A stretch of DNA of 21,270 nucleotides from a virus, in IMG/VR virus record IMGVR_UViG_3300021181_000114, positions 1 to 21,270 of that record; one strand, written 5' to 3'. Both the position numbers and the translations under genes were made by a program. Position 1 is the stretch's first letter. Every line of letters starts with the position of its first letter. The notes beneath the pieces are model-generated. The model was not told the DNA's origin, searched no databases, and saw only the letters and a list, made by a program, of their open reading frames with translations. Of the stretch, positions 1-2,523 are shown one piece after another.

Positions 1-783
1 GCACAATAGGGCCTTGCAGGACGAGAGTAGTTGCCCGCGAGTCTCTGTGTCGGCATACCCGACGTACTCAACATGATCGTGCTGAGGTCTATCTCCGCCG
101 GTCCCCGCCACGATAAGCTTTGCTCCGAGACGCCTGGTCAACTCGATGGCGATGTCGTAACCCTTGCGAGGGGTCATTCGAGACATGAAGAGGTACGATT
201 CTGAATCGCCGTTGAGGCGGCGCTCAGGAAACTCGTCTGCGTCGTAGTAGTTCGGGATGACTGCATCATAGAACCGACCATCCGCCGACGACGGTCCCAT
301 CTTCCCGTACACAGTGTGCATCCATGCGTAGCTCTCGAACACGCGATAGGGCGCGTACACACCCTCATAGCCAATCCCGTACTCCACCGACATGTTCGAC
401 GGGAAACTCTCGATGATGCTAGCCTGGGGACTCCCGGTGATGAAGCAGATGAAGTCCTGAGGTTCGATGCGCTCGCTGATCTCTGCAATGACCCGATGGT
501 TGAAGCTCCGCCAATAGGGAAGCTCACTATTCCAATCGAGCCCGAACCACTCCTTATTGACCCACCACGGATACTTCCGAAATTGTCGCTGCTGTGCGTC
601 TAGTGAGAGCACGGGAATGTGCTCCGTGCATTCCGCCTCGTTTCGCCCCGATGAGTACAGGAAGACCTCGTAGCCGCGACGAGTCATCATCGTGGCGAAC
701 TTGCGGACCTTAGCCGTATAGGCGCACTGGTTGTAGTCGGAGGTCGTCTCGGTGTGAGGGAGTCCGATTACGTGGAGGCGCAC
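1..783 (-). CDS. GT4-like (GT-B fold) glycosyltransferase, C-terminus beyond window
   Basis: Frame is open from a GTG at 783 to the window edge (261 codons, no stop), so the 3' end is missing. It begins V-R-L-H-V-I-G-L-P-H-T-E. The diagnostic part is near the end of what is visible: an I-P-N-Y-Y-D-x3-F segment (residues about 196-204), then F-M-S-R-M-T-P-R-K-G-Y-D, then an A-K-L-I-V-A-G-T-G strand and V-E-Y-V-G-Y. This is the usual order in the nucleotide-sugar-binding half of GT-B glycosyltransferases of family GT4. The protein should transfer a sugar from an activated donor. The acceptor cannot be read from sequence. Candidates are phage structural proteins (the Thr-rich collagen-like fibres lie directly upstream) or host surface polymers. 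It follows the fibre gene after 36 bases and has its own promoter, with no Shine-Dalgarno before the GTG. An in-frame TAA at 822-820 bounds the 5' side. Confidence 0.88.
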   Translation of the reverse strand, partial: MRLHVIGLPHTETTSDYNQCAYTAKVRKFATMMTRRGYEVFLYSSGRNEAECTEHIPVLSLDAQQRQFRKYPWWVNKEWFGLDWNSELPYWRSFNHRVIAEISERIEPQDFICFITGSPQASIIESFPSNMSVEYGIGYEGVYAPYRVFESYAWMHTVYGKMGPSSADGRFYDAVIPNYYDADEFPERRLNGDSESYLFMSRMTPRKGYDIAIELTRRLGAKLIVAGTGGDRPQHDHVEYVGYADTETRGQLLSSCKALLC

Positions 784-789
784 AAGGAA

Positions 790-818
790 ATCGTAACAGG
801 CGGGTCGCGCCGTGTCAA
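790..818 (-). promoter_or_regulatory. Sigma70/SigA-type promoter for the glycosyltransferase gene, predicted leaderless
   Basis: On the minus strand a perfect -35 box TTGACA (818-813) is followed by a 17-base spacer and the -10 box TACGAT (795-790). Six bases after the -10 box comes the G of the GTG start codon at 783. That is where transcription would be expected to begin, so the mRNA would be leaderless. The -35 box lies just after the TAA of the upstream fibre gene. Leaderless mRNAs are common in actinobacteria, which fits the absence of a ribosome-binding site. I checked the other TTGACA occurrences on this strand and none has a good -10 at the right spacing. Confidence 0.7.
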
Positions 819-819
819 G

Positions 820-2523
820 TTACGCCACGCGGACAACGCTGAGATAGTTATTGGTGCTGTCGTTACCGTCAGGGTATCCAGATGTCGTTACATTGGTCTG
901 GAACCAAAGCTCAAGGTAGTCACCGGCATTACACAAGAGGATATCTGAGATTGCGAGAGCCGTTAGAGACCCGGCGGCCCCCGCTGCCGTTGCCATGCAC
1001 ACTCCATGTGTGACGACGGTACCATTCTGGTAAATCGCAAGGTAGTTCTGAGCGCCGCCCGCTACCGCTGTATTCAAGAGAATCTGTCCACTGACCTGGT
1101 AATAGCCCGCAACACGACAACTGTACCGATGATTCGTGAGACTCCAGTTGCCGCCCGGGTCATAATCAACCGTATCAAACGCGATCTTCTGCCATCCACT
1201 ACCGTAAGCCGAGGGAGTTGAAGCTACATGTGCTCGCCCAATAGTGTTCGACCCTATTAGGGGTCCTTGGTTCTGCTGGGTCTTCAGCGCCTCTGTAGGG
1301 TTAGAGGCGTAGTAGTTGGCGATTCCAGCAAAATCGTAGGCCGCTACGATCCCTGTACCCGCCGAGTTAGGATGAATCTGATCGGTCTCCGTGAAGTAGT
1401 ACACATTCTTGGCGATAGCTGTGTCCGCTCCTGTCGGCACAATGACGCGACCATCGGAATAAAGAGCGGCAACCGCCTGTAGCGCACTAAGCACAGATGC
1501 GACCCCCGCGTCATTCAGCGCGTATGGACGGGTCAACCCCTCTACTGAATATCCGGTGCTTGTCAATCGTAGCGGTGGCTCCAGAATCACAAGCGGTGGC
1601 ACATCCGCCTCAATACCCCACCAGTCGAAGAAGACACCCTTGGTCTGAGCGTTGGTGAATGTAAGTGTGACATTCTGAGCCCCCGCAGCTAGAGTCCCGG
1701 CCGGTACGCGAATAGTCGCAGTTCCGTAATGAGCATTGGTGGTGGTATTGTTGAAGGCTGCCCAGATAGTACCCAAGTTGATCGTATTGCCGATGGGGTT
1801 ACCTAGGTGATCCGTGGCCGCAATGGTACCCGCAAACCCCGTAGGCCACGGTGTCGCGTCATTGATGATAGTGCCAAAGCACACGCCTTCACCGTTGTAG
1901 TCCGAGGGCAACGCGATAGTAATTGTGGCGGAGGCGGAGGCTGTTCGGTGAGCCGTTGTCCCAGAACTCTGAGTATTGGCGGTGAACGTGCTGGTTGTCC
2001 ATGTTCCGGTCGAATAGGTAACCGTGGCATCGCCATCCTCGAAGACCTCTGCACAGCGAATCCGATCCACCGCCGCCTGCATGGCCGCCTCGAAAACTGT
2101 CGTGAACCCGGACCCAAACATGCCGTAGTCGTTGATGCCGTAGATAAAGAGAACAGCCCCCAAGTTGGTGACATACGGTGCTCCCGAAAGGGTGGGCGAG
2201 AAGGTAGAGTAGATTGTCGGCCAGCCGCCTGTGGCTGCTGCTCCTGATAGGCCGGACCCGTTCTCAAGGCAGATGCACGAGCCGCCTATCCCGTAGTTAG
2301 ACTCAGTGGCACCCATCGCTTGAGCGATACGTGTCGATTGCCTGTCGTTGACCGAGTAGGCGGGAGTAGCGTTCGTGAGGCCATTACCCTGAGCGTATGA
2401 GTGTCCAAACACCATCAGGTTCTTGGGAAGCGCGGGAATTGTTCCCGTAGGCCCGGTCGGCCCGGTTGGGCCGGTAGGTCCAGTTGGACCGCCTGTGCCT
2501 GTTACTAGAGTGGAAGTTGCCAT
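820..2523 (-). CDS. Tail fibre/receptor-binding protein: collagen stalk, SGNH esterase, C1q-like tip
   Basis: 567 residues. Residues 11-28 are a short Gly-Pro-Thr collagen-like stalk. Residues 35-400 are an SGNH/GDSL-type hydrolase. Block I is V-F-G-H-S-Y-A-Q-G with probable nucleophile Ser42 (His replaces the Asp of GDSL), block II has Gly78, block III is Y-G-I-N-D with Asn131, and block V is D-Q-I-H-P-N with Asp381 and His384. About 140 residues (163-305), Thr/Ser/Asn-rich and probably a beta-sandwich, sit between blocks III and V, longer than a minimal SGNH domain. Residues about 445-567 resemble a C1q/TNF-type jelly roll (D-P-G-G-N-W, then V-A-G-Y-Y-Q-V-S-G, A-I-Y-Q-N-G, A-G-D-Y-L-E-L), which usually trimerises and binds ligands. 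The protein probably removes ester groups such as acetyls from host surface glycans during adsorption. The gene lies 9 bases after its upstream neighbour and the ATG has no clear ribosome-binding site. Confidence 0.87.
   Translation of the reverse strand: MATSTLVTGTGGPTGPTGPTGPTGPTGTIPALPKNLMVFGHSYAQGNGLTNATPAYSVNDRQSTRIAQAMGATESNYGIGGSCICLENGSGLSGAAATGGWPTIYSTFSPTLSGAPYVTNLGAVLFIYGINDYGMFGSGFTTVFEAAMQAAVDRIRCAEVFEDGDATVTYSTGTWTTSTFTANTQSSGTTAHRTASASATITIALPSDYNGEGVCFGTIINDATPWPTGFAGTIAATDHLGNPIGNTINLGTIWAAFNNTTTNAHYGTATIRVPAGTLAAGAQNVTLTFTNAQTKGVFFDWWGIEADVPPLVILEPPLRLTSTGYSVEGLTRPYALNDAGVASVLSALQAVAALYSDGRVIVPTGADTAIAKNVYYFTETDQIHPNSAGTGIVAAYDFAGIANYYASNPTEALKTQQNQGPLIGSNTIGRAHVASTPSAYGSGWQKIAFDTVDYDPGGNWSLTNHRYSCRVAGYYQVSGQILLNTAVAGGAQNYLAIYQNGTVVTHGVCMATAAGAAGSLTALAISDILLCNAGDYLELWFQTNVTTSGYPDGNDSTNNYLSVVRVA
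2440..2493 (-). repeat. Collagen-like Gly-Pro-Thr repeat at fibre N-terminus
   Basis: Six near-perfect Gly-Pro-Thr triplets, visible on the plus strand as tandem ggtcggcccggtt-like units at 2450-2492. The same repeat type dominates the 769-residue fibre encoded upstream and probably joins this fibre to a trimeric shaft. Confidence 0.85.

Follow-up and report, generated by a model that had tools for sequence, protein, structure and literature searches.

We found a predicted promoter of the housekeeping-sigma type (sigma-A/sigma-70) at bases 818-784 of the minus strand, within the late operon for tail fibres on a 21,270-nucleotide viral DNA fragment (the window). We give a probability of about 0.85 to the reading that this internal leaderless promoter is used by a host sigma factor and uncouples a glycosyltransferase gene from the fibre operon; its activity, the exact transcription start, the use of host sigma-A and the timing are what we infer from the sequence. 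Host sigma-A RNA polymerase would bind bases 818-790 and start at 783, the G of the GTG. The resulting glycosyltransferase mRNA would have no leader and would be translated by 5′-end (leaderless) initiation. RNA that runs through from the fibre genes would offer no Shine-Dalgarno sequence before the GTG, and the glycosyltransferase should be translated poorly from it, so glycosyltransferase output probably depends largely on the gene's own promoter. The timing or level of the enzyme is probably independent of the fibres.

The promoter elements and neighbouring genes are laid out as follows.

1-783, minus strand: glycosyltransferase of GT-B type, phrog_3408 (E=4.7e-52), Glycos_transf_1 (PF00534, E=1.7e-19); cut by the window end
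783-781, minus strand: start codon GTG
783, minus strand: predicted transcription start, the first base of GTG, from the canonical -10 to +1 distance and the T at -1
789-784, minus strand: the six bases TTCCTT between the -10 and the start
790-795, minus strand: -10 hexamer TACGAT (TANNNT), at -12 to -7 from the start codon, a position conserved in relatives
796-812, minus strand: spacer of 17 nt, ending in TGT (798-796), which makes an extended -10
813-818, minus strand: -35 hexamer TTGACA, perfect (6/6)
820-2523, minus strand: GDSL/SGNH-hydrolase-like fibre-region protein, 567 aa (PF13472, E=1.3e-6, a match that falls short of the curated threshold)
3195-5504, minus strand: collagen-like tail fibre protein, 769 aa (PF01391, E=1.7e-32; phrog_6320 tail fiber)

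Read directly, the minus strand runs GCGTAA C TTGACA-N17-TACGAT-TTCCTT-GTG. The first-pass annotation had described a TTGACA, a 17-base spacer and a TACGAT ending six bases before the GTG, and both its description and its coordinates were exact. The TAA that stops the upstream reading frame (822-820) ends one base before the -35. As a sigma-70/sigma-A-type site it combines TTGACA (6/6), a spacer within the allowed 16-18 nt and a TANNNT preceded by TGT. TACGAT agrees with TATAAT at only 4/6 positions, and the label "strong" would rest on the -35, the spacer and the extended -10. The spacing and the start also agree with the TA-led class of leaderless genes, in which TANNNT lies some 12 bp ahead of the start codon and a Shine-Dalgarno sequence is lacking. 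The GTG is the first start after the stop in the glycosyltransferase frame by ORF inspection, and it aligns with the conserved family start MRxHxxxLPHT. The predicted transcription start would be a G, the start codon being GTG. No Shine-Dalgarno sequence was found before it, as had been claimed earlier: the predicted anti-Shine-Dalgarno duplex has an energy of +0.3 kcal/mol and ranks 128th of 140 contig genes (median -4.95).

Both ends of the window, about 18 kb in all, were compared with the 128,248-base contig IMGVR_UViG_3300050821_001198 and are 100% identical to it; in that contig the complete glycosyltransferase has 359 aa (25367-26446) and its protein matches the phrog_3408 and Pfam Glycos_transf_1 family profiles. 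This contig encodes a tail sheath, a baseplate wedge, a portal and a DnaE-type polymerase, which points to a myophage. The best matches of its rIIA and DnaE are to Streptomyces, Rhodococcus and Gordonia phages at 28-36%. WhiB, an actinophage marker (PMC10202952, PMC6802176), was absent from this contig and present in 10 of the 14 other contigs carrying the leaderless element. The window's phage is probably an actinobacterial myophage. Among phage records, DNA-level relatives matched over only 2% of 8 kb, and part of the structural region had no near DNA match.

To compare the site among relatives of the glycosyltransferase, homologues were gathered by protein similarity and also, to keep ranking bias out, by searching with a degenerate pattern for the conserved N-terminal end. 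In this family, about 45% identical, the gap between the TANNNT and the start is exactly six bases in 38 of 150 distinct upstream regions and seven bases in 5; at any offset other than six the counts were 0-9. TGN precedes the TANNNT in 15 of the 38. The base at -1 is a pyrimidine in 41 of the 43 sequences with the element, compared with 38 of 107 others; by its sequence the start codon coincides with the common initiator, a pyrimidine at -1 and a purine at +1. When the sequences with the element were aligned from -45 to -1, the only well-conserved columns were -12, -11 and -7 (1.4-1.5 bits), -10, -8 and -1, and the flanks showed background conservation. The median anti-Shine-Dalgarno energy was 0.0 in the genes with the element versus -3.9 and -8.6 in the other classes. 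The clade with the median of -8.6 carries GGGGGA instead of the leaderless element. In a glycosyltransferase clade (L009, L011, L019, L030 and others) an SD-like, self-complementary GGTCGGGGGACCA stands directly before the ATG in place of the element.

Conservation of the whole -35/-10 promoter was rejected: only the -10 and the -1 are conserved, and TTGACA in the relatives averaged 2.1/6 at spacings of 16-18, no better than at control spacings. By this comparison the -35 box is a feature of the window's phage and not of the class; what is shared is the -10 with its leaderless spacing. Inheritance of the promoter with the gene family was also rejected, as the cellular relatives (Nocardia, Clostridia) carry the element in 0 of 56 cases. 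Other genes in the same loci have it in 2 of 237. The element occurs in several separated clades, with at least 9-11 changes forced on the starred branches of the tree. The nearest homologue (55% identical, from the same metagenome) is without it, and its start overlaps the upstream TGA as ATGA. General overuse of TGNTANNNT-N6-RTG in the relatives' genomes was rejected too, because totals were near the reversed-pattern control in most contigs. A few other genes of the two large contigs do have a -10 at offset six; these counts are lower bounds, as the gene caller misplaced some starts (for example that of the glycosyltransferase of G008). In a 117-kb freshwater phage contig (G009, locus L300), at least three genes (26.9, 27.5 and 36.4 kb) are each preceded by a copy of the leaderless promoter CTAGGGATTGTATAAT-N6-ATG. 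The same arrangement as in the window recurs before the glycosyltransferase in many distantly related phages, and it is almost certainly real and selected.

The 128-kb contig contains 21 strong sigma-70/sigma-A-type promoters (at least 10/12), compared with 2.9 in shuffles. Nine of its promoters have an ATG or GTG 6-7 bases past the -10, compared with 0.12 in shuffles (maximum 2). The earlier proposal of leaderless expression from a dedicated promoter is supported by this genome-wide excess of the same geometry, together with the recurrence of TANNNT-N6-start and the -1 pyrimidine across divergent phages. Eleven of the 21 lie on the minus strand between 3.7 and 18.9 kb, where small genes and rIIA and rIIB are found. 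In T4, rIIA and rIIB are early genes. Several of the leaderless first genes of the contig overlap the next gene as ATGA. At 3737 and 16704 (minus strand, locus L102), promoters precede tiny predicted leaderless ORFs encoding MDYSIFDATGNLEDQL and MNPTRGIQR, the latter ahead of an rIIB-like gene. Each of these ORFs overlaps the start of the next gene as ATGA, and they are possibly leaderless leader peptides with translational coupling.

Between about 18.8 and 64.3 kb of the contig, the minus (coding) strand has no strong promoter apart from that of the glycosyltransferase. The statement that this is the only good promoter in an otherwise continuous operon therefore holds, and extends beyond the window. 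By type the promoter is one of those of the early-type region, although it sits in the late block. Early or continuous expression of the glycosyltransferase is the more likely outcome, since the same promoter type and leaderless spacing mark the early-type region. The first-pass annotation had suggested expression at a different time or level from the fibres. This is plausible given the clustering of the other strong promoters, and we keep it as a suggestion because read-through may also contribute.

The promoter could instead be real and late, with host polymerase helped by a phage activator or an appropriated sigma, so that the glycosyltransferase is co-expressed with the fibres from an extra late promoter. 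The location within the structural operon agrees with this, as do the relatives with no -35 box, since activator-dependent or extended -10 promoters may lack one; in addition, cultured actinophages from fresh water are reported in one paper to carry a sigma-70 gene (PMC10202952). However, the -35 of the window is perfect, like those of the early-type promoters, and no sigma gene was found in the contigs with Sigma70_r2 (PF04542) or TIGR02943. A phage-encoded sigma was rejected as the reader of the promoter for the latter reason, and we consider late co-expression unlikely, at roughly one chance in four.

A chance match is improbable. On this view the glycosyltransferase gene would close the fibre operon and be expressed by read-through, with a promoter-like site that stays idle. 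The window by itself gives this some room: it has one site of at least 10/12, the glycosyltransferase promoter, where shuffled windows give 0.63, and sites of 9/12 show no excess (9 observed, 8.5 in shuffles). No terminator was found between the fibre-region gene and the glycosyltransferase gene, so transcripts of the fibre genes may continue into it. However, a site of at least 10/12 with an ATG or GTG at offset 6-7 is expected only 0.05 times per shuffled window. From the window alone the site is suggestive but short of decisive, and only modestly beyond chance; the contig and the relatives, as two independent tests, make it convincing. The excess in the contig, the conserved position and -1 pyrimidine of the relatives and the missing Shine-Dalgarno sequence, which read-through RNA would need, all count against an idle site. 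A translational origin of the relatives' TANNNT, as an upstream TAG or TAA at a fixed distance for terminate-reinitiate coupling and not a -10 box, is very improbable: the TA falls within the stop codon of the upstream frame in 15 of 36 and G is common at the third position, but the stop lies elsewhere in 21 of 36, that of the window is 37-39 bases upstream of the GTG, and the T at -7 and the -1 pyrimidine would be left unexplained.

The glycosyltransferase is the last sizeable gene of a leftward structural block, which plus-strand genes approach up to 25.1 kb of the contig. Collagen-like genes lie upstream of the family's glycosyltransferase in 65 of 98 phage loci and in 10 of 31 cellular loci (mostly clostridial). 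This suggests, as a lead only, that the enzyme glycosylates collagen-like fibres; tail loci are rich in collagen-like genes anyway. Collagen-like Gly-X-Y genes are also found close to eight clostridial or Bacillota relatives (L252, L259, L265, L266, L268, L280, L284 and L287), which hints that the family glycosylates collagen-like proteins. Nocardia chromosomes (L227-L249, L275, L281) carry relatives at about 50% identity, in multiple copies in some genomes. Elsewhere in the window, a 1165-aa protein (6031-9528, minus strand) has a probable LAGLIDADG intein, with Hint at about 511-557, LAGLIDADG at 755-808 and a C-terminal splicing region to about 876. Ahead of the intein, at 344-419, is a weak match to Arr-ms (rifampin ADP-ribosyltransferase-like).

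With uncoupling by an internal leaderless promoter as the preferred reading, we tentatively propose a rule for actinophages, as possible rather than probable. An enzyme decorating collagen-like tail fibres would have a leaderless promoter of its own (TGNTANNNT-N6-start) that frees it from the fibre operon, and would be made ahead of its fibre substrate or without regard to it; distant phage lineages would have acquired or retained this promoter time and again, with an SD-driven version in its place in others. A single promoter-like match thereby becomes a testable class, in which a leaderless promoter recurs at one phage enzyme gene within late operons. If the rule is true, actinobacterial phages exploit the leaderless translation of their hosts to uncouple a modification enzyme from the surrounding structural genes. 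For annotating actinophage genomes it would also offer a simple guide to internal promoters and to the right starts: a TANNNT with six bases between it and the start, and a pyrimidine at -1.

Leaderless phage repressor transcripts exist, such as lambda cI from PRM. The glycosyltransferase resembles this case as a phage mRNA beginning at its start codon from a sigma-70-type promoter, the start being predicted in the window. Unlike cI, it is not a repressor but lies among tail genes. The Synechococcus phages S-CAM7 and ACG-2014f have phrog_3408 glycosyltransferases with 38-41% identity to that of the window; their host differs, and the likeness is one of protein family alone. The cultured Planktophila phages E7 and F5 (PMC10202952) offer a parallel by description: they are freshwater actinophages whose genes include whiB and those for a glycosyltransferase and for collagen-like proteins. 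The leaderless mechanism itself is already known in Actinobacteria, where more than 20% of genes have been described as TA-led (Zheng et al. 2011, PMC3160421) and about 14% of mycobacterial genes are leaderless (PMC7148126); its recurrent placement at one phage gene appears new, being unreported in the literature searched. The window shares with those genes the TANNNT at -12 to -7, the lack of a Shine-Dalgarno sequence and a transcription start predicted to coincide with the start codon's first base. It differs from them in being a phage gene in a late operon, in its additional perfect -35, and in that distant phages repeat the arrangement at the same orthologous gene.
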